Assembly (NCBI RefSeq): GCF_000003605.2
Contig: NW_003156737.1
Location: 267,185 to 292,365 of the forward strand
Origin: Saccoglossus kowalevskii
Taxonomy: Eukaryota; Hemichordata; Enteropneusta; Harrimaniidae
DNA: 25,181 nt
Direction: 5' to 3'
Position numbers and translations under genes: made by a program. The notes beneath the pieces were generated by a model. That model saw nothing but the letters and a program-made list of their open reading frames with translations, searched no databases and had not been told where the DNA came from. Of the stretch, positions 1-24,450 are shown one piece after another. Numbering within the stretch: position 1 is the stretch's first letter; the number at the start of each line of letters is the position of its first letter.

Positions 1-980
1 TCGAATTGTTGCCCCCCAAAATGTAGCGTTTCAGAGGGTCTAGACTTCAAAATGTTCTCGGGGGAGCATGGCCCAGGACCCTTCGGCGCTCGATTTGCTG
101 ACATTCACATAAAATCTTCGCCCACAGTGAAAAAAAAAGCTGCCACCGCCTCTGATAGATAAAAAAGTACAAATACAAGACATTGTCAGACGGATAAAAG
201 GAGATTGATAACGTTGAGTAATTTGTCAACTTTACTTTAACGGTTGAGACAGTGTATGTTTTGATTAAATACCTCACACGACAAAAATGTGATTATCCAC
301 TATTTCGTATGACCATATCAATTCTAACGTAAAATGGGGTATGACTAAGTCATTTAAAAAATTATACGAGTGATAATTTTAGTTTTTATGATAGCGTAAA
401 GATATTCCTACCAACACAAACTCCGTCGTCGTCTCACGTAAAATATATGTGGAATGGCATGTTATAACGCGATGATGACAGAATTACTAGGGAGCAGGAC
501 AGGAACCAAATTTATTCAATAAAACTGATGTTTTATTAATTCAAATAATCAAAACACTTGACTGACATGATAATTTATACAAATGTTCCTTATTAGTGAA
601 TCGAATGTGTAACTTTGCACACATTGAACACCCAGAAGTTGACTGCTACACTTTTACAAGCTAGCAACGAACAAATGTGTACGCTACCATTGTTCTCATT
701 AAGTAGGACCAGTAGGTAGAATTTCAAAGCTAATGACAGTTTTTAGTTGACATAAATACCAATCCCAGTACCAATATCTACATATTTATGATATTACTCA
801 CTTATTTGTTCACATATGTTATGTAAATAAATCGAGCAAAAATACAAATCAATGGAATTGATATTCCGTAATAGAAACATATTTATATTTGTATTAATAA
901 CCTTCAGCATGTAAATATATATATCTTTAGACATGGAAAGCGAATTTAAGTAAGATATATTTACTAACTACAACTCTTAC

Positions 981-1056
981 CTTTGGAAATGTATCGGTGA
1001 TGTCTTCCGACTTCGTGTTTACAAGTAATGCGCAACCAAGTGTATTGTGTACTTCC
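981..1056 (-). other. Exon-like segment in the duplicated unit, unrecognised
   Basis: On the minus strand this 76-nt segment sits between a good acceptor (cctacag) and a good donor (gtaaga). One frame is open and reads STQYTWLRITCKHEVGRHHR followed by YISK. Copy B (4137-4216) keeps the donor, but its acceptor AG has become AC and the segment has gained 4 nt. In the decayed third copy (about 6790-6875) the same frame still gives a G-[RK]-x-H-R-x-I-S-K pattern, which hints at former coding. The peptide matches no family I know. It could be an exon of a duplicated and dying gene, or simply a conserved noncoding stretch. Confidence 0.3.
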
Positions 1057-1111
1057 CTGTAGGTAAACGCAGCACACAAGTTTAAGAATAGAGGGCGTGA
1101 GGCTCACAATG

Positions 1112-1190
1112 AGAATAGAATAGAATAGAATAGAATAGAATAGAATAGAATAGAATAGAATAGAATAGAATAGAATAGAATAGAATAGAA
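1112..1190. repeat. AATAG pentanucleotide microsatellite
   Basis: About 15-16 uninterrupted copies of the pentamer AATAG (gaatagaatagaat...). On the minus strand it reads as an artificial TTCTA-type open frame, which should not be taken as a protein. The matching place in copy B (about 4365-4385) contains only one or two degenerate units, so the expansion happened in copy A after the duplication, or was lost from copy B. Confidence 0.97.
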
Positions 1191-1860
1191 ACATTTTTAT
1201 GATTATGTGCACATTCTCAAAAAAAGTACATTTTTAATACATTGCACACCCAGATGGTGACTGGTCTATGGTTACCCTTTAGCAACGTAGGAACGTGTAA
1301 GCTCATGTGATCGTTTTATTATAGAGTCTAATGGTCATAAAAAGTAGTTCAACCTCAATAAGCAGTTTTAATACACTTGTTCATATATTTATTATCGATA
1401 ACACAATATGACAGATCGCCCTGCCTATGCCCCGGTTTTTATACGGTATAGAGATAATTTTACGACTGATGTGGCACATCTTGCGGCCATGTTTTCACGA
1501 GAGAAGTGATGGACGATACAGCAAGGATAAACCGCATCACGAGACAGCTGTGGTATTTTTTCTGACATATTTAAGTTCATGACTCTTTTTTTATTTCTGT
1601 AAGTCGAACGTTAAAGGAAACTATTATTACATACAGCCATTTACGCAGAATAAGCAGCATATTATGTTTTCGTTTCGAACACATCAGTTAATGCTGCGAG
1701 TTAAACATCATTCACCGCTTTGTCGAATTATTATATTGTTCAAACACAGAACGGGGTGTGCAACAAATAACTCACAAATGACTTGCTTTTTATAATCTCC
1801 ATGATAGAGTAATTATGGTGGCTGGGTTTAAACTTAAACACTTACTCAGAAGATATGGTA

Positions 1861-2328
1861 CCTCCTATAGTTAATATACATACATGAGGAAATGCCCCGG
1901 TGAAGTACTTGAGGTCAATCTACGCAATGGTTAACTCAAATATTTGCAAGATACCAACAACTTTAACTTGAAGACATTTGTGAAATTTTCATCTAAAAAT
2001 ATTTTTAGTATAAACGTTAACACTCGTGACTAAACTACAGCGTTTTTGATGCGCAAGCAAAGAGTTCAATGTCTTTCCTCTCGAGGCATGTCTTCATTAA
2101 TCGAAGGGTATCGAAAGAGGCACCGGCGGTATTTAGTGCAAGCCGCGCCCAGGTTAAAACTCGTACTCGTGATTTTATTAAAGGAACACATAGGATTGTC
2201 GGGAAAATAATACCAACAGAAATCGCGCATGCTCAAAAATAATGTTTATAATTTTGACACGTACATGAGGAAAACAAAAATTGGGACAGCAAACACGAGC
2301 CACGTTTGAAAAAATATAATTTCTACAA
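1861..2328. other. Spacer between copies A and B
   Basis: AT-rich noncoding DNA with no open frame of note, no RNA gene and no repeat that I could pair with the rest of the window. It separates the two tandem copies. Confidence 0.5.
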
Positions 2329-3179
2329 TCGATAAAAAAGTACAAATACAGTTGTACAAATACAAAAGTTGTTGTGCGTCATATAAATAGCCGTTGCCAG
2401 ACGGATAAAAGGAGTTTGGTAACGTTCAGTAATTTATCCACACAGGGACCATGAATTCTAATTGATACTGTATATGGCAAATCCTTTAACGGTTGAGATG
2501 TGTATGTTTTGAATAAATACCTCACACGACAAAAAGGTGACCCGCCGATATGTCGTATGACCATATCAATTTAACGCAAAATGGGATATGACCAAGCCAT
2601 TTACAAAATTATACGAATGATTATTTTAGTTTTCATGACAGTGTAAAGATATTGCTACCAACACAAACTCCGTCGTCGTCACACGCAAAATATATGTGGA
2701 ATAACATGTTAAAACGCGATGATGACAGAATTACTAGAGGGCAGGAACAGGAACCAAATTTATTCGATAAAACTGAATTTTTATTAATTCAAATAATCCA
2801 AGCACTTATAATTAAACATAATAATGTACACAAATGTTCCTTATTAGTGAATCGTATGTGTAACCATGCACACATTGAACACCAAGGAGTTGACTGCTAC
2901 ACCTTTACAAGCTAGCAACGAACAAATGTGTACGCTACCATTGTTCTCATTAAGTAGGACGCAGTAGGTAGAATTTCAAAACTAATAACAGTTTTTAGTT
3001 GACATAAATACCAATCCCAGTACCAATATCTACATAGTTATGATATTACTCACTTATTTGTTCACTTATGTTATGTGAATAAATCGAGCAAAAATATAAA
3101 TCAATGGAATTGATATTCCTTAATAAGAATATATTTATATGTTTGTATTGATAACCTTCAGCATATGAATATATCTAGG

Positions 3180-4080
3180 TTAAGGTAGAGATGCAGGTTC
3201 GTGAGCATTTTTGTTTTTGCTTTTTATAATCCAAACAGTCTTGGCTATAGACTGTTAACATTTTGTAGAATTATAAATAGTGGAAGATACTCAAAAAGCG
3301 ATTTAAAAATATAGATAACAGGTGCAAAGATTAACTCTTTTGAATGCTTAAAAAGATTTAGCAAGGCTGTACATAAATAATAAAAAAGAAACATTGTGAA
3401 AAAAAAAGAAATGACGGGGTCTCCATATTATGCACTATATTTAACTTTTAACAAAACGATAATACATTTAAATTTAGAACAGTTACAGCCATTTTAATTA
3501 TGAGCATTAGCAAACTTCTTACTGAGTGAATTGTTATGCAAATTAGCAGTTATCTCAGCTTTTTTTCAGTGCACATCCCAGAACTTTAAAAAAATAGGTC
3601 CTAGACACTTTGACCTTTTGTTTTGAAATTTTCACAATTGATTGACAATGTGTTAACGCCGTCGGGGCATTGTCTTTAGTTGAACAGTGTCACAGCAACA
3701 GACAACTATCCCGAGTGTTAATTTATGCATAAACTTGAAGTAGTGAAATGTGAGCTGCTGCCCTGCAAAATTGACAACTGGTAGACAGTTTTCAAGACGG
3801 CATTTTCTTCATAGTAAACAGATGTACCCATAAACGAATTTTAACAGGAACAGAAGCATGGTTTAGAAGCTATTTTTTTTAAAATCACTTTTGACCAAAA
3901 AAACACATTTTTGTGCATATTTCAAACTACAGTGTCCATAAAAAAATACAAAAAAAAAAAAATTAAAATTCATACAATAAGCTTTCCGAAAATATATAGT
4001 TTTGTGGACAAGGGAGGTCATCTTGGTTTCCTAATTAACTAATTAAAATACCTGTCAGGTAAACTACATCTCTACCTTAA
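3180..4080. mobile_element. Non-autonomous TTAA-type DNA transposon (MITE)
   Basis: A 901-bp insertion bounded by perfect 14-bp inverted repeats, TTAAGGTAGAGATG at 3180-3193 and its complement at 4067-4080. The match continues inward with two mismatches to about 20 bp. The outer TTAA is best read as a target-site duplication. The uninterrupted site in copy A (TTTAG/ACATGG near 930) confirms the insertion. There is no coding capacity, and the interior is AT-rich with poly-A/T runs. TTAA targets are used by piggyBac and Kolobok elements. The termini start GG rather than the CCY usual for piggyBac, so Kolobok-like is somewhat more likely, but this is an inference. Confidence 0.85.
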
Positions 4081-4136
4081 TACGATGGAAAGCGAATGTA
4101 TGTAAGATATATTTACTTACTTACTATAATTCTTAC

Positions 4137-4216
4137 CTTTGCAAATGTATCGGTGATGTCTTCCGACTACGTATTTACAAGTAATGCGCAACCAGGTGTA
4201 TTGTGTACGTACTTCC
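4137..4216 (-). pseudogene. Copy B of the exon-like segment, acceptor lost
   Basis: Counterpart of 981-1056. The donor gtaaga is retained. The acceptor AG is AC (cctacac) and a 4-nt insertion shifts the frame, so if the segment was ever an exon this copy can no longer be spliced or read in the same way. Confidence 0.3.
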
Positions 4217-4766
4217 GTGTAGGTAAACACAGCATAGTAGATTAGAGGGCGTGAGTGTAATTAAGAGACCAATAAATTCCTGACATATTTACGAATATAT
4301 TTTTAACATTGAATGTTTTTCTCTCGTTCGGAAGTTAAAATCCGAACAAAAGGGTTAAATACATAGAACAGAATTGAATAGATGACACACATTTTCATGA
4401 TTATGGGCACATTCTCCACAAAAGTACATTTTCAATACATTGAACACCCAGAAGGTGACCTATGGTAACCTTTTAGCAACGTGTAAGCTCATGCGATCGT
4501 TTTATTACAGAGGGTGTAACGGTCATAAAAAGTAGTTTAACCTAAATAAGCAGTTTTAATACCCTTGTTCATATATTTATTATCGATAACACAATATGAC
4601 AGAGCGCCTTGCTCTTGCCTGGCTGTTTATGGGGTATAGAGGTAATATTTATTAGTAATGTAGCACATCTTACGGCCATGTTTTCACGAAATAAGTGAGT
4701 GACGATACAGCAAGGATAAACTACATCACAAGAGACAGCTGTGGTATATTTTCTGACATATTTAAG

Positions 4767-4852
4767 CAATAATCCCCCGCCAAAGTCGGGTATACCACGA
4801 GATATTGCACAATTCACGACATATATTCAAGAGCCGCAGGCGGGGGTTATTG
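4767..4852. repeat. 86-bp inverted-repeat hairpin at the insertion edge
   Basis: CAATAATCCCCCGCC (4767-4781) pairs with GGCGGGGGTTATTG (4839-4852), apart from one unpaired base, around a 57-nt interior. It starts exactly where copy A and copy B part, immediately after TTAAG. The GC-rich arms stand out in an AT-rich region. It could be a tiny MITE or a structured end of the larger insertion. Confidence 0.7.
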
Positions 4853-5369
4853 TTATTATATTATACCAGTATATTAACAATTTGATAAAACTAGTGAAAT
4901 AAGAGTTACTTGCATCTACTATAAGATCGTGATTATGGCCCTTGAAGATGAATATTTATAAGAATAGTATGTGGTTGTACGCTGAATGCATGCAAAAATT
5001 GCATAGGCAACAAAGTTCAAATTGAATACAAACTAATTTTTATTCCGTATGAAAAAGAAACGTATCCACAGTAAATAAAGCAGCATGAACACAACAACTA
5101 GCATAACAAAAGATTACCTTTTTTACCTTTTACTGACTGCGTCAATGCCATTGAAATACAGGGTCGTGTACAGTTTGGATCATTAAAACAACGGATTTTC
5201 CACGTTTTCATTCCGTTTATTGTACAATTTGAATTGTAATTTTAGCCTTGAAAGTAAAGTAGTGAAATAAACCGGTTTGGTGACTCATCATACTAATTGT
5301 AACTGTGGATATTTGACGTTTAGCGGTACTTGGTTCGACCGAAATTTGAGACGCGGCGGGACGCGGTGT

Positions 5370-5828
5370 ATCATGTACGGCGACCGGCACGGCGATCTCT
5401 GTCCCAACACCTGACCTGGATACCTTTGGTATAACCAAAATTGTGTGACAGTTTGACTGACAAGTTTTGTTGTCGTTCAGGGGTAAGTTTGATGGTGTAA
5501 GATCGGATTCTCGCATCGTTTTGTGACACGTACATTATATGCCTTGTCTCAACTCCGGCCGAAAGAAAGACTTTGCACGTCGTCGCTCTAATGCAGTGGT
5601 TGGTGTACACTCGGCACAAATCTGTAGCTTTCGAAATAACCTTCATCATCTCCTGTAATTTATTTACCCATAGTGAAGAATTACGATACCATATATCGTC
5701 AACGAATTCTTCGTTGTCCCATGTTCTTTGAAACGGATGGCAATTACCCGGGTGCAATTTCACTGCGATTTTGTCAGCTTGAATTCGAACGCCGCTACGG
5801 GACACCAGTTGTTATTGGTGGCATACAT
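5370..5828 (-). pseudogene. Crypton-type tyrosine recombinase (DUF3504-like) fragment
   Basis: Reading from 5828 downward, the translation begins MYATNNNWCPVAAFEF, typical of the domain start (MYAT..CPVASFE). After one frameshift near 5760 it continues with GNCHPFQ, DIWY, a QEMMKVISKA helix, the YTNHCIRATT core and RSYT. This is the C-terminal catalytic part of the Crypton family, also found domesticated in ZMYM2/QRICH1-type proteins. The H-x-x-R pair (NHCIR) is present, and a tyrosine (RSYT) sits where the nucleophile region is expected. The usual GH before the SIRSY block is replaced (SQNDARIRSY). Such enzymes cut and rejoin DNA during circular-intermediate transposition. The N-terminal part is not seen, the frame is broken, and the tail degrades after about 5371. 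A dead fragment is the safest call, with good confidence in the family. Confidence 0.75.
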
Positions 5829-6584
5829 TTTTGCCTGTGACTCGTAGTTTTTTTGCATTTTTTTCCCTTCAATCCCTAAATCTCATCTAGTACATAAAGA
5901 TTATGTTTTTTTTTTCTCAAAGTCACAGCACGGAAAACACAGCGTTTTGGCGTTCGTTTAGGCACCTCACGATGTTGAGCGACGGTGGTTTGGGTTTGCG
6001 TAGCGAACGATAATCACCCAACGACGGACTCTGAAAACTTGGATCCCACCATTAACAAAAAGCAATATTATGGTTATATAATTTTTCAGATGTTTTTAAT
6101 TCGGTATTTTTTTCAATATTTTTTTTCAAAATTCAACCACTATATTTCCCTAAAAATCAAATACTACCGGTATTATGTATTTCCGTATTAAACCTGTAGT
6201 CAATTCATATTCACGGGCCACTTGGTTTAGCCGTGCATTATCAGCAAATATACCATTAATTGCATATGCAAATTTTGTGTTTGGACAAATCAATGGGTTA
6301 ACAACATCAATTTACTGGTATAATATAATTAAGTTCAGGTCTCTTTTTTATTTCTTTAAGTTGAACGTTAAAAGAAACTATGCTTACGTACAACAATGTA
6401 CTCAGATACTATGTTTTGGTTTCGAACACATGAGTTAATACTGCGAGTTAAATTTCATTCACCACTGTGTCGATTTATTATATTTTTCACTCACTCATAA
6501 ATGACTTGCTATTTATAATGGCCATGGTAGAGTATAAATGATTGATGGATGTAAACCAGCACTGACTGTATTTCGCCTGACGCA

Positions 6585-6890: not shown

Positions 6891-7685
6891 ACAAAAACAA
6901 ATGATTCAGTAATGTATCGCTGATGGGGCTGTTGTGTAGCATAGGTGGGGTATACATCATTTCAACTAGTCTTGTCAGATTGCTATTCTACACCTTGCAT
7001 GCCACATATACATGTTTTGTTGTTGTTGATACAAAGTATGCATGTTATCCAGAGTCAGGATCTGTATAATTCAATCTGACACCAATGAGCAATATCCCTA
7101 ATTTATTAGCATGATTGCAAATTTCTGCCTTACATGCGTATTCAAAAATTGGTTTACCATACACAACTTTGCTATTTATGTTGCCTGTAATGTCCCCATA
7201 ATTAAACAAAATTATTTTAATATTGGCACAGTTTGTATGATCCATACTTAATTTACATATTTAGGTTAATCGTTCTAATCGCTTGGTATCCAGGATTATA
7301 ATTGTCAATGTACTAAAAACATCATGGAATTCTAGAATAGGTTTTGAGATTTTTTTGTTTTATCGTCATGAAATTTGTTTACGAATTACACAAAATAGAA
7401 CATTATACTGGTCTCAACACCAATATGTTATGTGTTGAATTCATCGTAATTTTCTGCATCAAGATACCCAGTTTGTAAGAATTGTGTTCATAATGTGATT
7501 AATTATGTTGGAAATCATTAGCAGCAGAAATAAATTGTTTTTGTAGAAATGAAACAAATTAATATTTTTGTCAAATTTGTACACAATAATTACGGGTTCC
7601 CTAAAGTTCAATACCAATAAAAAATGTCATGTCGTTTTAAATGTATCAAGTGGATTTCATATAATTATGACTTTCTCTATTCGTA
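6891..7685. other. Noncoding spacer left of the transposon
   Basis: AT-rich sequence with no RNA gene or repeat that I can support. A 66-codon minus-strand frame at 7045-7245 is the only open stretch. It faintly recalls a CAP/SCP-domain segment (FNYGDITGN, VYGKP) but has the wrong spacing and lacks the usual cysteine, so I leave it uncalled. Confidence 0.4.
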
Positions 7686-7814
7686 GACTATCGACAGTCT
7701 GCAGGCTTAATTTGTTAGGCATTTGCTAGAAATGTCGCAGGCATTTCAGCGGTGGCCAGAGGGCTGTTAACGCTTGTAAACTCCTTCACGCGACATTACG
7801 TGGTTTTCCACCGG
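7686..7814 (+). repeat. Left terminal inverted repeat
   Basis: The outer block (7686-7705, GACTATCGACAGTCTGCAGG) and an inner block of about 53 bp (7761-7814, from GGGCTGTTAACGCTTGTAAA to the CCGG) match the right end in reverse complement. They are separated by a more diverged AT-rich stretch that still shares a GGCATTT motif. Two conserved blocks separated by a spacer suggest two transposase binding sites. Confidence 0.9.
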
Positions 7815-9339
7815 TGCATGCATAATCTGCTCAGTACCGGTGGTTGGCTGGTTTCCGCCTCGAGTGTCATGGCGTACCAATCCACAAGAGGCCGGTAACT
7901 AGTAACGAATCAGGCATTCGTCCATCACTTTCTCGTTGCTTGTTCTATTTCCCTTGGTTACTGGACGTCAGCGTTTACGCTCGCGGCCCTAGAGCGAATA
8001 AAAATGTGTTTCTCTTGTTATAAATTGGTACAGAAACATCTCAGATATGAAGTCTAAGCAAGCAGAGTCATGTGCCTTTTGGCCGGAATCCCGGCCAGTG
8101 GAACAATTCACCTTTCCACAACCAGCGCGTTCAGTCCGCTATTATTGGCAGCTATTTTGTCCGATAAGTTGTCGCGTCGGAAGTTCGCGCAAAGTTTGAG
8201 AGATATGTTTTTTGTAGTAGCGTGTGCCGATTATTTTGATGGTCAAACGTTGTGCCTGTGGCCAGTGTAAATCTGACACTAGATATCTGGACCAAAATTC
8301 CGATATTGTATTCTTCCCATTCCTGAAACCCAAAACCCAGTACGACAAATGTCTGAATGTAAACAATCTCGATAGACACAAGTACGTGTGTTCCAAGGCG
8401 AGTCATACGTCATTAATATCGAAACAAATATTAGCATGTTTTGTTACGAAAGCCCTGGATGGTGTTGTCTAATTTCGCAGAAATGTGTTGTAGCGCACAC
8501 GTAGCGTCGGCTCACACTGATGTTTCATCATGAATTCCCGGTTTGTTTTGATTATTTATTGAAGCATTCAAATATGACAGAAGGGCTACACCCGACCATC
8601 GATTGTATTTAGGTACCTGTAGCCGTAATAACTTCAACGTCTGCTCACTTGACATTAACTATCGTGAACGGCGTTGCTAGGTGAAACATATTTTGTCCCT
8701 TTCACAATATCATATAGACAGTTTATTTCAGCGGGCGTAATACCTTCGTTATTATTTTTACCTCTATGGTTTTACGATTTTCCGTTTACAGTAAGTACTA
8801 ACAGCACTTTAAAGTACTTTGTGTGGTTTGCATTCATATAACATTTCATGGAAAGCCAGGGACCAAGTAATACATGCTGGAATCCGATGGCAGCTGATGG
8901 GAGAATTAAAACTGCAAGAAAGCCAGCCAAGAAATGGCGTAGTACTGAGAAAGTGTATTGAATGATTATACAGGTGGGCAATATATCGTAAATAAACATT
9001 TTTATATTTGTAAAATATGCAGTGTACCGTTTTTGAAAGAATTTTCAGTTGGGAATTCAGTGTACTGGATTAAGGCAAGGAAAAAACAACATAATTGTTA
9101 AGTGCAGTTGACACTTTATTTATTATTGATGAAAATATTTGATAAATTTATGTACTTTTGCTAGGGACCATACATGTGTAATATTTTGCAGTATTCATAC
9201 ATTGTTTACAGTTCTCATTGTAAATCTCCCCTTACTTGTTGCAATTCAGTGCAAACAAAAGCAACCAAGATTGTTATGCAATAGAAGTGAACACTGAGAA
9301 CAGCTGTCAAACTGATGAGTTGTGTAAGTTTTATGTGAC

Positions 9340-9345
9340 TTTATT
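9340..9345 (-). promoter_or_regulatory. Poly(A) signal of the YqaJ gene
   Basis: AATAAA on the minus strand, 16 bp past the stop of the nuclease gene (9362-9364). It supports the inferred 3' end. Confidence 0.6.
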
Positions 9346-10648
9346 TAACATTATTTACACATTATGTAGAATGATGGCCATTTCTATGCATTAAATATGG
9401 TTTGACATGATCACTAAAAAACCTAGCTAGTTTAGATAGTAATTCTAGCATATAAAGGATGTCTGGTTCAATGTTTTCTACATGAATACACTGTATACAA
9501 CAAAATCACAGAATTCTGCCCCCGTAACCTAAAGCTGTCTCTGGACTAGCTAGTATTGATGGCTGTGATCTAGAGACAATGTAGCATCTTCCTTTTTTCT
9601 TAGCATAAAATTGGGTAAATTCATTGCTGCTTGCTCTAAGGTAATACGTCTTGCACTGTATGGACACTTAATCTCAATTAGTCCACACTTCCCATCACAA
9701 CACACTTTTCCATCAGGAGATGCACCAAGGAAGGAACATTCTGGGTTGATGACTAAACCGCAGTTATGGATGTGCCTTGATGGGAACATGTCAAGATATT
9801 TTGCTTTAGCTTTTGACTCATTACGTTTACCATATTCTAAGGATGTTGCAGAGAATTTTTTTATTTGTGAATAAATCATTAAGAAATGCTGTGGATGGTA
9901 GTGATTTTCTTTTCATTAACGACCAACGTTTGATGCTGTGAGACGTTTTTCGCTAGCTTCAAACCACTTTTCACAGCTTGATTGGTCTTTATTTCGAGAC
10001 TTGAGAGGCAAGATACTTCATAGACTTTATTGATGTGTAAAAACTCTTGTGGTAGTCTGACGACAGCTGTTCTTAAGAAATGTGTTGGTCCACACCCACT
10101 TCCATGTGAAATTTCAGTGAGACAACTTTCATCAGTACAAAAAAGATTATTGAGTGTAAATTAGTTATAAAAAAAGAATCTGTTATTTCTCAAAATGAAG
10201 AAACAATCAAATGTCTAAAGGAGAAATTACATAGTTGTAAATTTGGTGTACAAGCAGTGCGAAAAAAAACAGGAAAAAGTCAAAGGGATGATGAGATATT
10301 ACACTGGTATTACATATGTTAGATTTTTAGCACATTTTTCATTTCTTTTGTCAGAAGGAATGAAACTGACATATGAAAAGACTAGGTCTGACATTACAAA
10401 TATGCCCACAAAGGATTGTCTTTTTAATGTCTTATTCGTTTACGACACAATTTTGAACTAAAAGACATAGCCATGAGATTTGGTATTTCACTGCAATCAT
10501 CTGGAGATGTATTTATTACATGGGTTGATCATATGTTTGGTAAATTTGGTCAGATTGGTATTTGGCCACATCGGAATTTTAGAATTGCTAATATGCCTGA
10601 TGATTTCAACAAAGAATTCCCAACCAGTTTAATTATTATTTATGGTAC

Positions 10649-11326
10649 TGTCATGAATTTGTTTTCGCGTATCTGTTGATCGACTTAATTAGCTGATTAT
10701 TAGCGAATTGCTGTGTTATGTCTGTCATCGTTTAGGCCTATTTGAAGTTTTGGACGGAACTTGGCTCAGTGACTAATTACCAGATAACCGCCGCTTTTTA
10801 GACTACTCATTTTGACAGTTTATATCCGTAGTTATTAATGTAGTGAACGATTAATCAAAAGATATGACGTATTCAGTACTTAGTGTGATTGGCTTTATGA
10901 TTGAAGGTTACGCCCTAGAGTCTTTTTACTGCTTTGTAATTGGTTAGAGTTTTGAAAATGAATAAAGAGAGTTTGAGTTGGTCTTGGCGAATACTCCACG
11001 GAGAAGAAGAGAAGAGAGAGTGCAGTCCTGGAGAGTCCGAGAGAGTCCAGGGGCGAGCCTTGAGGCAGTCCAGTCTTGGGCGAGTCTTGGTTCAGCCTTG
11101 TGAGAGTCTTGGGGACTTTTCCCCAGGGCGCTGTGTCTTATAGAGTGCTCCAAAAGATCGACTGGGACGAGAGTTGAAACGTATTTCGTTGTGTGGGTCT
11201 TATTTGACTGTAAAGTTAAAGTGACTTTCCCGATCCCGTACCTCAAGGGGACGAGATATAGAGACGAGACGAGTTTCCCCCCTGGCAAGTGTGGAGAACC
11301 CCGAGAGAAGAGTTTTCCCCCTGATA
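10649..11326. mobile_element. Solo LTR inside the transposase core
   Basis: The DDE coding sequence is cut exactly within the G-T-E-F codons, and reading resumes at 11331. The insert starts TGTCA and ends TGATA (near-perfect TG..CA-type inverted termini) and is flanked by a 4-bp duplication GTAC at 10645-10648 and 11327-11330. It has an internal AATAAA (10961-10966) and a GA-rich, stop-poor 3' part (10990-11320) whose composition differs from the host element. No gag or pol coding is present, so this is a solo LTR left after recombination, most like a Gypsy-type LTR by size and ends. Open frames at 10940-11288 on both strands are products of the GA-rich sequence. Confidence 0.8.
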
Positions 11327-11837
11327 GTACTGAATTTAAAACACAAAAACCATGTGCACTTGCACTTCAGATTAAGATGTACAGTGGTTATAAGTCAAGT
11401 ACATCACTGAAGGCATTAATAGGATGTGATCCTAGGGGATCTGTTATTTTTGTGTCAGAACTTTTCACTGGATCCAACTGTGATCCACAGTGGATTTTTC
11501 TCACTGCTTAAATCAATAATCGGATATATCCATGAGGGAGGTGCTGTTATGGGAGACAGGGGGTTCGCTATTGAGAATGAATTGAAAGCTCTTGGTTTAA
11601 GACTCAATATTCCACAATTTGAATCATCTTCAAAACAAGTGTTTGTTACTGGGATTAAAATAACTCAACAAATTACAAAGCATAGGATCCACATAGAAAA
11701 AGTTATAGGTAAAGTAAAAAACTACAAAATTATGGTACAGATAATACCAAATGTACTTTTCAAAAACATTAACAAAATCTGGTCTGTTTGCCGTGTCCTT
11801 ACTTTATTTAAAATTGTCTTTGTAAATGATGAAGATA

Positions 11838-11843
11838 AATAAA
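11838..11843 (+). promoter_or_regulatory. Poly(A) signal overlapping the transposase stop
   Basis: AATAAA overlaps the TAA stop of the transposase. Together with the signal at 9340-9345 it shows that each of the two antisense genes has its own 3' end. Confidence 0.5.
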
Positions 11844-13008
11844 TAATTTGTATATAGAGCGTGCTTGTATGTTATTTTAAAACAATTGTGAATATTGTAC
11901 TGATTTACAGCTTGTACAACCAACCTGATAAGATAATAATGATCCCAGATGCACTTGACCTTGTGGAGTGTTACTGGTGTGTTGTTTGATACCATGTATG
12001 GAAGTCTGCAGAATATAATAAAATACACAAACATTTTTTTAATTTAAAAACTAAAAAGTAATGGCTCTGTATGTATATCTTTTTCCAATTTTCACTTCTG
12101 TAGGTGTTGTATTTACCCACACTGCTTCAATTAGTGACAATCAACACTTACTTTGCATCTGTGTCCATCTGGCAAACCACTGGTTTTCTCTTTCTCTGTT
12201 CAGATGGTTTAGCTACAATTACATGATTGATGGGTGCTGCACTGATCGTGGGACCTCTTGGAACATGCCTTTGCTGCGGAGCACTGGTTCTCATGGAACC
12301 CTTGACAAATTGTGCAGCTCAAACCCTTGTAAAGATTTAACTAAACCAATAACATGTGAGCATTGTCCACTCAAGCTGAAATAAAAAACATGCATTACTT
12401 TAGGCCATGGACAATACAAGCTACACTTAAAGTGAGAATAAATAAAAACACAACATAATTTAGTGCAAATTCGATGGCTATACTCACGATTTCAATACCG
12501 GCAAATTTAAAGATTACTCACAAATGTACGGCAAAAAAAAAGAAAAAAAAAACTTACCCAGCCTTTACAAGAACAGTGGGAAGTCGCAAGTCTTCTGTCG
12601 GAACATATGTCCATGGTGATTTTATGCGGAGGCTTCAATTTTGACATAGACCTCCAACATCGCGCACTGACTGAACCTTCGTTGTTTACCCTGATGTTGT
12701 GCACATAACCTTTGCACGAAATAATTCAACCCTTTTTCTTGGGCCTTCTTAGACACATTTTCCCAGTTAGCAATATATATGATGGAAATATCATTTGGTA
12801 CACGAACAAGGCTGTCTGTAAATAGATGAAGCTGTCTGCTTTCTCCCTCGCCCGCCATAGCCGATAAGTTTACATTAATGTCGGACGTAGCAACTGTAAC
12901 TGAGGGAGCGTGGCTTAGATCGCCGTAGTAGAAAGGTGAATATGGCGATGTTACAAGTTACCTGCGTTCTACCTGCCGTTCGCAAGGGACGCCTGGAACC
13001 AGCGAATA

Positions 13009-13118
13009 CCGGTGAAAAACACGTAATGTCGCGTGAGGGCGTTTACAAGCGTTAACAGCCCTTAGGAAATGCCTGATTTAATATATGAAAAAATTGGGCC
13101 TGGGGACTGTCGACAGCC
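13009..13118 (-). repeat. Right terminal inverted repeat
   Basis: Reverse complement of the left end. The outer block is 13097-13118 (ends GACTGTCGACAGCC), the inner block 13009-13061 (CCGGTGAAAAACACGTAATG through TTAACAGCCC). The nuclease gene starts about 150 bp inward at 12858, so its promoter must lie within or next to this repeat. Confidence 0.9.
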
Positions 13119-13986
13119 TATCCATTCGCACAATGTCAAAATATCGGCCATGTAATACCTGATGTATGTGCAGTTCAGTTCAATTTACTATAAGAAAGTT
13201 TTAACTAGACATTTGTAAAATTGAATTCTTCAAAAGGCTAGCCTTTTTGGAACGAAACTAGACAATACCTGCTCAAACTACAAAGTACAGTCTACCTCTC
13301 GGCCTGTAATTATTTTTTACATATGTTCTCATTTATCTCACTATTTGGTCAATTTTGCGTCGAGTGTTATACAATTCATAGTCAATAAATGTACAATATA
13401 TAGGTGATTTCCTGAACGTTTTCTATTTTAATTATAATGTATGTGCGCATATATCAGATGTTGTTGGTGTCCAAGCATCTTTCTGAAAAAATAAACTAAT
13501 GCTACATATATCTGGTTTTAATTGTGAAAAACAACAAATCACAAAAACTATAATATTCAACATTACATTGTAATAACCCTGCATTATATACATACTCTGA
13601 TTGAAGGTTAAGGAAGCGGGACTATTATTTGCATACTTGTTTTCATCTTCTAATTGTGACTAAATGACTACAAATAGTCCCGGGAAAGTATATATTTTTA
13701 GAATCGCCACATTTGAAGCTTTTCACAAGTGTATTTTGCATGCCGGTATCTGCATTATACGACGTGTTACTCAATCAAAGGTGAACAATTACTTTTTCGG
13801 TAAAAAAAAATAATTACGCATTTATGCTGGCGATAAGAAGTATTTTTTTCACTTTTCCTAGTTGTTCAATAGTCTGGTAAATTGAATGTGTCTGGTCAGT
13901 TTTATTCAAGCAACGCGTTTTAAAAAAGAGTGTGCTGAATTTCAATTACTGTTTTAGTCGCATTGCTCCCAACTCAAACCACAACT
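13119..13986. other. Noncoding flank with a small hairpin
   Basis: AT-rich, no gene seen. One inverted repeat stands out: CGGGACTATTATTTG (13617-13631) and CAAATAGTCCCG (13671-13682), with a 3-nt bulge and a 39-nt loop. It could be a MITE remnant or a structured transcript. Confidence 0.4.
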
Positions 13987-22464: not shown

Positions 22465-23969
22465 TTACAATTTTTTCATTAATGCTACACCAAAATTCTG
22501 TTGATCATCACTCCACTTTTTTTCAATAGAAAACCCAGTTTTTTTCATAACTTCTTCAAACTGTTGCCAGTTCCATTTTATGCTTAGACTGTCTGGTTCG
22601 TGAGCATACATCACCTCCCCTTTTTTGAAATGTATCTTCAAATCTAAATTACCTGTATACGAAAAATAAGTTAGTAGATACAAAGTATTTTGCATGTACA
22701 TAGCAGGTTTGATGTAATACACGGTTTATTATAGCTATTTAAGCGATGTGATGTTGTTATTCACATGAGTAATAATGTACTTCTTTTACTACCCAAAACA
22801 TTACTTCAATCAATATTTCTAGAGATCATAGCATTCCCATAATCATGTCTATTGTCCAGTTATCAGATCAGATAAATGTTAAAACATCGAATTCATTGAA
22901 TCTTGATCAAAAGTTGTTCATAAAACTTCTTATAATCACATAAACTAGCTATGAATATTTAAACAGTGCAAGCATATTACTTGGACACTAAAGATAGATG
23001 TATATTGGTGCTGAATAGTTTAAAAAACGTGTTATCTGAAAACATAAATCATATACATGAAACCGACGGGAAACTAATTATTACCTAATACGTACACACA
23101 CTAATCATTTAATATCACATAAACAAATGTCTACAATTTTGTTTCATCAAATTGAGGAACATATATCATGGATACTCACGTAGGTATACGACTTGTTCAC
23201 ATGTGCTCTGGCATCCGACCTTGATATATTGTGGTCTTTTTACGAATGTATGCATATTCTCACTCATAACATATTTGGTGTCTATACGGAAATTTTTCAT
23301 ATTGAAATCTGCTCCATATTCTCGGTTTAATCGTGTCAGCAAATTCAGAATTAAATTACAAAGTGTAACGTGTGAGTACGTTTGAACTTGCTCGTCTTCA
23401 TTTTGTTTAATGTCGATACCAATCAGCAGTCTATCATTGTTCCCTGAGAAAATAAATTACAATATAACATATTATTGCATTGAATGGAAAACGTGTAAAT
23501 TGTTTTAGATTTTAGTACTCGGCGAGATGAAAATCTAAATATGTACATGATTTGCATAGGCGAACTTACACATGACAAGATGATATCATACAGTATTTTG
23601 ATACTTCCAATAAATTCACTTACACTTTTTGTTTATGTACGCATGATCAATAAAAACACACAACAGATTATCACGCAGCAAATACGGCGAAGGAACGCGA
23701 ACCTAAATTTCGGTACTTTGCGCATAACCTCATATTATTTTGAACAATAATATCATGCTTCTTACCCATTGCCTCATTTACTGTCGTCAAAAACGATTCC
23801 ATATCGTGTATTGGTATATTACTAAAGCTGCTGCCAATGAATAGTATCAGCTTTTTCTGATTTAAACACTTGATATGTTGCAAACCATCGACGTACAGCC
23901 CATGGAACGGTTTCACTTCCAAACCATGGAATTGTTTCTTCAGTAGGTCTGCATGGTGTTCCATGAAAT
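22465..23969 (-). CDS. Histidine-specific SAM-dependent methyltransferase (EgtD-like), C-terminal half
   Basis: Three exons join cleanly on the minus strand: 23969-23766, 23443-23180 and 22652-22465, with phases matching at both junctions (G|GG and C|GT), acceptors TTAG, TTTTCTCAG and GTATACAG, and donors GTAAGA and GTGAGT. The 217 residues carry the hallmarks of the Methyltransf_33 family: GLEVKPFHGLYVDGL, LILFIGSSFSNIP (the LFLGSTIGN block), LLIGIDIKQ, LNLLTRLNREYGADF, and a C-terminal GFSIEKKWSDDQQNFGVAL before the stop. Bacterial EgtD trimethylates histidine in ergothioneine synthesis, and related domains occur in OvoA and in animal proteins of unknown substrate; the substrate here is not shown. 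The first exon seen starts mid-codon (phase 1), so exons with the SAM-binding motif and substrate loop must lie upstream. None is visible up to 25181. They may be beyond the window, or the locus may be a truncated duplicate. No frameshift or stop is seen in what remains. Confidence 0.8.
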
Positions 23970-24450
23970 CTAATTTGAAAAATGTGAAAGTCTTTATTGA
24001 TCGCGACGTAAACCGAAATCCTTTTCTTTTCATTACTGTTCTTCAAAACATTTAAAACAAGATTTTTCAAAATGTATATGCAAAAAATCCTTTTATTGAT
24101 AAGAATCAAATAGACAAGGTAGCACACCGATGCTTACGTGTGATATCAAATGTTGATGACAGTAAAGGATTTGTAATGTTAAAAAATGTGCACAAAATAA
24201 TCATTACGGGAACAACACATTACGAAAATGTACCTCACTTCCTCACTTGGTTATGATGAGGACATTAGTCTCATTTAATTAGTTATAAAGATTGTTATCT
24301 TATGCCACATAACAATGTGTAAACAGACGTCTACTGACTGGAACTACATTTAGACATCGATTGACCTGCCAGTTTAGAAAATCACGTGGAGTGCGCGTTT
24401 GTGTTACTATATCACGATCGTACAGAAATCATACACATTTTTCGTGATCA

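Follow-up and report, generated by a model that had tools for sequence, protein, structure and literature searches.

Transposase and nuclease genes predicted to interlock on opposite strands of a decayed ISL2EU-type transposon in Saccoglossus kowalevskii

Transposase and nuclease genes at the locus

We analyzed a stretch of 25,181 nucleotides from the acorn worm Saccoglossus kowalevskii (contig NW_003156737.1, positions 267,185 to 292,365; hereafter "the window") that contains a decayed DNA transposon of the ISL2EU type, 4,832 bp long with a later 681-bp insert and 4151 bp without it. Its plus strand is predicted to encode a transposase and its minus strand a nuclease, and along the plus axis the parts follow in the order THAP(+), linker(+), YqaJ(-), helix-turn-helix (HTH)-DDE(+), and nuclease exons 3, 2 and 1(-). 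A first-pass annotation made from the sequence alone had proposed that the last nuclease exon falls within a transposase intron and the DDE exon within a nuclease intron. This was borne out: nuclease exon 4 lies inside transposase intron 2, transposase exon 3 lies inside nuclease intron 3, and the predicted exons of the two genes do not overlap. The features of the element are as follows (window positions; slashes mark splice sites).

8108 to 12939, no strand: ISL2EU-type DNA transposon with two interlocked genes, decayed; delimited by its ends and an empty site
8239 to 8397, plus strand: transposase exon 1, THAP zinc finger with terminal VCSK; donor GC in the window
8805 to 8952, plus strand: transposase exon 2, coding for the HF that completes the THAP motif and for a basic linker; reading frame shifted in the window, 3' end approximate
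9362 to 10118, minus strand: nuclease exon 4, encoding the YqaJ/lambda-exonuclease domain; stop codon at 9362 and AATAAA at 9345
10118 to 10139: deletion point, exact place approximate; in the relatives, two 3' splice sites stand back to back in a spacer of 35 bp
10126 to 11842, plus strand: transposase exon 3, coiled coil, HTH and DDE domain; 5' end truncated, stop at 11840-11842
10649 to 11329: later 681-bp high-copy insert interrupting the DDE domain, accompanied by a target repeat of 4-5 bp; solo-LTR-like (long terminal repeat) by eye
11925 to 12005, minus strand: nuclease exon 3; acceptor CAG/ACT and donor TTATCTTATCAG/GT, common to the window and relative L064
12152 to 12375, minus strand: nuclease exon 2, second half of the SWIM finger (GQCSHV)
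12558 to 12858, minus strand: nuclease exon 1, with the start codon and the N-terminal half of the SWIM finger (CSCK); frameshifted in the window

The presence of a THAP-DDE and a SWIM-YqaJ gene on opposite strands of one transposon, as first annotated, was confirmed by Pfam matches above the curated cut-offs to HTH_Tnp_4 (E 1.6e-7; residues 1-38 of the open reading frame (ORF) piece 10428-10679, plus strand), DDE_Tnp_4 (E 9.3e-12; residues 22-127 of the ORF piece 11423-11842, plus strand) and YqaJ (E 2.5e-8; residues 18-93 of the ORF piece 9550-9912, minus strand). The YqaJ piece also matched solved lambda-type exonucleases in the PDB (3syy, E 1.3e-6), and nuclease exon 4 carries the motifs GASPDG (9726-9710) and EIKCPY (9675-9658). 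Neither the THAP exon by itself nor the unspliced pieces of nuclease exon 1 gave a match to THAP or SWIM, respectively, in Pfam. When 8397 was conceptually spliced to 8805, a THAP match appeared that extends three residues past the junction (E 0.0036), and joining nuclease exons 1 and 2 gave a SWIM match (E 0.022); both are below the Pfam cut-off, and they were the sole families recovered at E up to 5. The limits first given for the THAP exon (8239-8397), for nuclease exons 1 to 3 (12858-12558, 12375-12152 and 12005-11925) and for the nuclease stop (9362) were right. The start of the second transposase exon is probably at 8805 and not at 8842, as VCSK/HF would then fill out the THAP C2CH motif. 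Nuclease exon 4 reaches further 5' than 10070, into a block (EISHGSGCG) that is conserved in two relatives of the element.

These relatives, L073 (contig C1007) and L064 (contig C3772), retain splice sites of both genes. The donor of transposase exon 1 is AAG/GTGAGT in both and GC in the window, and the THAP exon is recovered in both relatives; the AG acceptor of transposase exon 2 is common to the window and L073 only. On the nuclease side, the exon 1 donor (CTGG/GTAAG) and the exon 2 acceptor (TTTCAG) and donor (AAA/GT) are found in the window, L073 and L064 alike. Exactly 35 bp separate nuclease exon 4 from transposase exon 3 in both relatives (L073 4777-4811; positions 3744-3778 of the reverse-complemented L064), with a minus-strand acceptor at one edge of this spacer and a plus-strand acceptor at the other. 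Coding outward from the spacer yields similar peptides in the two loci (VSPLDVLAQCADFHQLQ and VSLIDLLVQYAEIHRLQ for the transposase, INNIKTIEISHGSGCG and TNDRKIIKSSHGTGCR for the nuclease); the reading is open in L073 and hits stops after 17 and 28 residues in L064. The transposase phase at the spacer differs by one base between them, presumably through decay.

The window copy itself is dead. The reading frame shifts in nuclease exon 1 and transposase exon 2, and a codon beside the 681-bp insert that is Asp in both relatives reads as Tyr; we take this to be the first catalytic Asp, as expected for the family. About 80 bp present in both relatives are missing around 10118-10139; the lost part includes both central acceptors and the beginning of transposase exon 3. 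The DDE core does lie in a nuclease intron, as annotated, but it contains the insert and its exon start is deleted. The complementarity of about 2.5 kb claimed for the primary transcripts amounts to 2.48 kb (9362-11842), including 0.68 kb contributed by the later insert; in the relatives the overlap is about 1.6-1.9 kb, as judged from the alignment. Because no exon of one predicted mature mRNA is complementary to an exon of the other, any pairing would be limited to unspliced RNA.

Relatives in the genome and comparison with known systems

To place the layout, we searched the genome (572 Mb, 4830 contigs); all YqaJ and DDE locus counts are lower bounds because the searches score best candidates only. 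YqaJ matches were found on at least 20 contigs (17 by search, plus C38, C568 and C3944 inside loci that we examined), and 11 of these 20 also hold a DDE of the same kind within about 6 kb. The other nine (C809, C14, C3661, C2673, C2307, C3647, C4664, C1090 and C2916) have YqaJ without a nearby DDE. Three of the 11 are interlocked, in the order THAP(+), YqaJ(-), DDE(+), SWIM(-): the window copy (contig C4613), C1007 and C3772. The remaining eight are tail-to-tail (C2261, C2730, C3086, C2726, C3977, C38, C568 and C3944), among which the YqaJ match is weak in C3944 (E 0.0012) and C3977 (E 6.9e-4), and C38 and C568 represent copies of a single family. Contig C38 holds another DDE copy (26277-26743), which lies in a 3-kb locus without YqaJ (L017) and enters neither layout count. 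Contig C451 (locus L060) has no YqaJ, and its nuclease exon 3 follows within about 80 bp of the DDE end, succeeded by exons 2 and 1, matching the interlocked order. C812 (only 3 kb read) and C1090 are fragments.

At the DNA level, L073 is 74-91% identical to the window copy in six aligned pieces, and L064 is 65-69% identical in four long pieces (65-86% over all eight). As two further loci carry the same order, a chance origin is unlikely and the window copy is not a rearranged one-off. The first-pass annotation had named intact side-by-side relatives as a sign of rearrangement; more distant families of this genome do have the two genes side by side, tail-to-tail, whereas C1007 and C3772 are interlocked, neither of them intact.

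On C809 (L063, 3419-6032) the YqaJ match lies in a long minus-strand frame, and the DDE searches found no DDE match on that contig; this frame perhaps represents a different type of YqaJ protein. Outside the genome, scans that require nearly exact short peptides confirmed no relative of the DDE piece among viral contigs and prokaryote genomes and none of the YqaJ piece among viral contigs, and tblastn of the DDE piece against phages and plasmids gave no match at E 0.01.

We then considered the direction of change using an unrooted tree of the DDE domain built from 17 of 18 loci of this one genome, with no named ISL2EU sequences (L025 was left out, with fewer than 60 aligned residues). The interlocked loci form a group with support 100, and their nearest neighbors are L024 (C2070) and the reverse-complemented L062 (C2726), with support 77. 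The latter is tail-to-tail, and further tail-to-tail loci occupy separate branches. Because the more distant families are tail-to-tail and spread over separate branches, interlocking most likely arose secondarily, in one clade. The converse, that the interlocked order is ancestral and tail-to-tail derived, draws on the tree being unrooted, but it needs more changes given the several separate tail-to-tail branches, and we regard it as quite improbable. Inversion of the central block was rejected as an origin since both exons would flip, which does not yield the observed layout. Perhaps the ordinary tail-to-tail order underwent a tandem duplication of the DDE exon (+) together with the YqaJ exon (-), after which the outer copies of both exons were lost; the duplication joint would set two acceptors back to back, matching what is observed.

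ISL2EU elements are described as encoding a transposase with THAP, HTH and DDE domains and a second protein with a YqaJ domain, with an AT target duplication and a mean autonomous length of about 4840 bp (PMC4482050, PMC9179366). The window element resembles them in its DDE transposase with HTH and THAP (the THAP match being below cut-off), in its YqaJ second protein, and in its length of 4832 bp (4151 bp without the insert) against that reported mean. It differs in having the genes interlocked on opposite strands, and in a terminal inverted repeat (TIR) that begins with TC, where GG is usual, although not obligatory, according to PMC4482050. Convergent DDE and YqaJ genes are also present in the tail-to-tail ISL2EU-like families found in this genome (L061, L062, L065, L066/L067, L068, L029 and C3977); unlike in the window, their YqaJ lies beyond the 3' end of the DDE exon. 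Harbinger elements share a related DDE transposase and a second gene, which is Myb-like and not a nuclease; that gene is required for transposition in vitro (PMC9179366).

With regard to novelty, the main text of PMC4482050 lacks the words "orientation", "intron" and "overlap", and that of PMC9179366 lacks "orientation" and "opposite". Among the titles and abstract openings listed by literature searches, with most subscription journals and Repbase outside their scope, none described ISL2EU gene order or a DNA transposon whose genes interlock on opposite strands. ISL2EU elements with two proteins are already known (PMC4482050, PMC9179366), and within the scope of these searches the interlocked variant is new.

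The finding indicates that interlocking on opposite strands need not prevent the spread of a DNA transposon with two genes. Host genomes contain interleaved antisense gene pairs in which exons of one gene lie in introns of the other on opposite strands; the window element differs from these in that its two genes are parts of a single mobile element and travel as a unit. This genome also harbors tail-to-tail families encoding the same pair of domains, which offers a natural comparison of convergent layouts, and, if intact copies exist in related species, these would allow a direct test of whether opposed transcription and splicing control transposon activity.

Signs of selection on both genes and competing explanations

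Between the window copy and C3772, Ka/Ks was 0.13 for transposase exon 3 (bootstrap 0.06-0.25; 191 codons; Ks 2.0; 243 of 300 replicates usable), 0.25 for nuclease exon 4 (0.13-0.49; 88 codons; Ks 1.6; 261 of 300) and 0.10 for nuclease exons 1-3 (0.07-0.26; 117 codons; Ks 3.0; 176 of 300), with saturated replicates dropped. The corresponding values for C1007 versus C3772 were 0.10, 0.31 and 0.07. A third-position test on DNA-level alignments, which is free of the bias of selecting by protein, gave an excess of third-position differences between the window copy and C3772 in the transposase (138 of 319 differences, p 1.4e-4), in nuclease exons 1-3 (87 of 184, p 6e-5) and in the YqaJ block (45 of 101, p 0.012). 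Together these comparisons indicate that amino-acid selection acted on both genes, with the weakest signal for the YqaJ exon. Both C3772 and the window copy are interlocked, which is most simply explained by descent from an interlocked common ancestor, with both genes preserved in the interlocked arrangement.

Overall, we consider it likely that the window element is a dead member of a clade of ISL2EU-type cut-and-paste transposons with interlocked genes, with splicing and origin as outlined here. The predicted products are a THAP-HTH-DDE transposase from the plus strand and a SWIM-YqaJ exonuclease from the minus strand; each primary transcript would traverse the main exon of its partner in antisense and splice it out as an intron, so that both proteins could be made from one compact element. 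Convergent transcription over the shared 1.6-1.9 kb is predicted to make the two genes likely competitors for one template. More speculatively, and in our view doubtful, the lineage may have kept an obligate interlock over Ks 1.6 or more, with the 35-bp module serving as a self-limiting switch that guards against deletion of a single gene. Productive expression from a given template would then be possible for only one of the two proteins at a time, and because the opposed 3' splice sites share the 35-bp module, each branch point would probably lie within or against the partner's exon.

Several observations weigh against this account. Every copy that we read is broken, so none proves a working element; C1007 is without part of the DDE domain and without nuclease exon 3; the splicing of both genes is predicted only; and the duplication-and-loss origin is hypothetical. 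In a YqaJ tree of eight loci the three interlocked loci group together with support of only 40. The Ka/Ks values come from protein-picked codon alignments, which bias Ka low, and from saturated Ks (1.6-3.0). Among the DNA-level comparisons of the window copy with C3772, nuclease exon 4 as a whole gave a weak result (65 of 165 differences at third positions, p 0.06), and the sub-blocks TNP_cc (p 0.97) and NU4_x (p 0.68) showed no third-position excess, perhaps due to frameshifts. Against C1007 there was no third-position excess in either gene, and against C451 Ka/Ks was 1.24 (0.65-3.09) at the DDE end and 0.61 (0.37-1.01) in nuclease exons 1-3. Because these closer pairs show no selection signal, most of their differences arose after insertion, and the comparisons reflect decay and not selection.

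Could the interlock be only apparent, the window copy being a composite of two nested or rearranged ISL2EU fragments? The locus is truly nested, with one miniature inverted-repeat transposable element (MITE) in another, the transposon in a MITE and a repeat in the transposon, and the distant families are tail-to-tail; however, a copy-specific rearrangement would not recur in C1007 and C3772, the second of which is only 65-69% identical in long pieces, and selection is seen on both genes between the window copy and C3772, which makes a composite hardly credible. A less remote, still improbable alternative accepts the interlock but holds that one gene is functional and the other a passenger whose product is supplied in trans by tail-to-tail relatives. 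The decay of all copies read and the weakness of the YqaJ signal at the DNA level (p 0.012 in the YqaJ block and 0.06 across exon 4) would fit such a passenger, whereas Ka/Ks is far under 1 in both genes, with bootstrap upper bounds of 0.25 and 0.49, and the splice sites of both are conserved.

That the layout was itself selected as a regulatory device, with opposed transcription and double-stranded RNA throttling the element, would be in line with convergent genes whose pre-mRNAs are complementary over about 1.6-1.9 kb and with the double acceptor, which measures 35 bp in each of two diverged copies. We think this unlikely, as compaction or chance fixation accounts for the same facts and the predicted mature mRNAs do not overlap.

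Element ends, nesting and neighboring features

The transposon begins with TCACCTTTC and ends with GAAAGGTGA, with AT at 8106-8107 and 12940-12941. With TCACC as the first letters of the TIR (the symmetric reading TCACC...GGTGA), an AT duplication results in the window and in L073, and the empty site agrees with it. AAT borders both ends, and a 3-bp AAT duplication with uneven TIRs matches the same letters as AT. For the ISL2EU target A/AT/T, the 5' base is A in the window and L073, and the 3' base is A in both and T at the L060 end. An AAT duplication would fit the ANT duplication of Pangu, a PHIS-group element described in PMC4482050 as having a second ORF with a Myb/SANT domain, but the second protein here gives YqaJ and a weak SWIM match and not Myb/SANT.

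Rejoining the flanks gives GGAACAATATGGCGAT, and the alignment runs unbroken across the junction in 23 of 29 MITE loci (letter-identical in 19); in the other six no alignment crosses the empty-site point. As the empty site is uninterrupted in those 23 loci, the transposon was inserted as a unit into a MITE. The surrounding features are listed below.

7684 to 7843: outer hairpin MITE, left arm; 30 matches on 24 other contigs, beyond the window's own two
7844 to 8105, no strand: host MITE, left part; 264 candidates genome-wide, 40 scored including the window
12942 to 12992, no strand: host MITE, right part; match to query 1-54, empty-site alignment
12995 to 13120: outer hairpin MITE, right arm; inverted repeat of 7684-7843

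The inverted repeats 7684-7843 and 12995-13120 were rejected as transposon ends: the left arm recurs on 24 other contigs, and the MITE inside them provides the empty site. The region 7684-13120 is therefore a four-level nest of a hairpin MITE, a second MITE, the ISL2EU-type transposon and the high-copy 681-bp repeat. This last repeat is not present in L073 or L064; it had 1313 first-look candidates, of which 40 were scored, namely the window and 39 others at 90-94%.

Another copy of the host MITE can be recognized by eye in L031 (C3768, about 1171-1665), with a 10-12 bp direct repeat around it and seemingly inside another repeat. Elsewhere in the window, within positions 1-6500, the blocks at about 300-960 and 2550-3170 appear by eye to be two diverged copies of one stretch. 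At 22465-24042 (minus strand) lie ORF pieces that look like putative exons of a histidine-specific methyltransferase (EgtD-like) gene.

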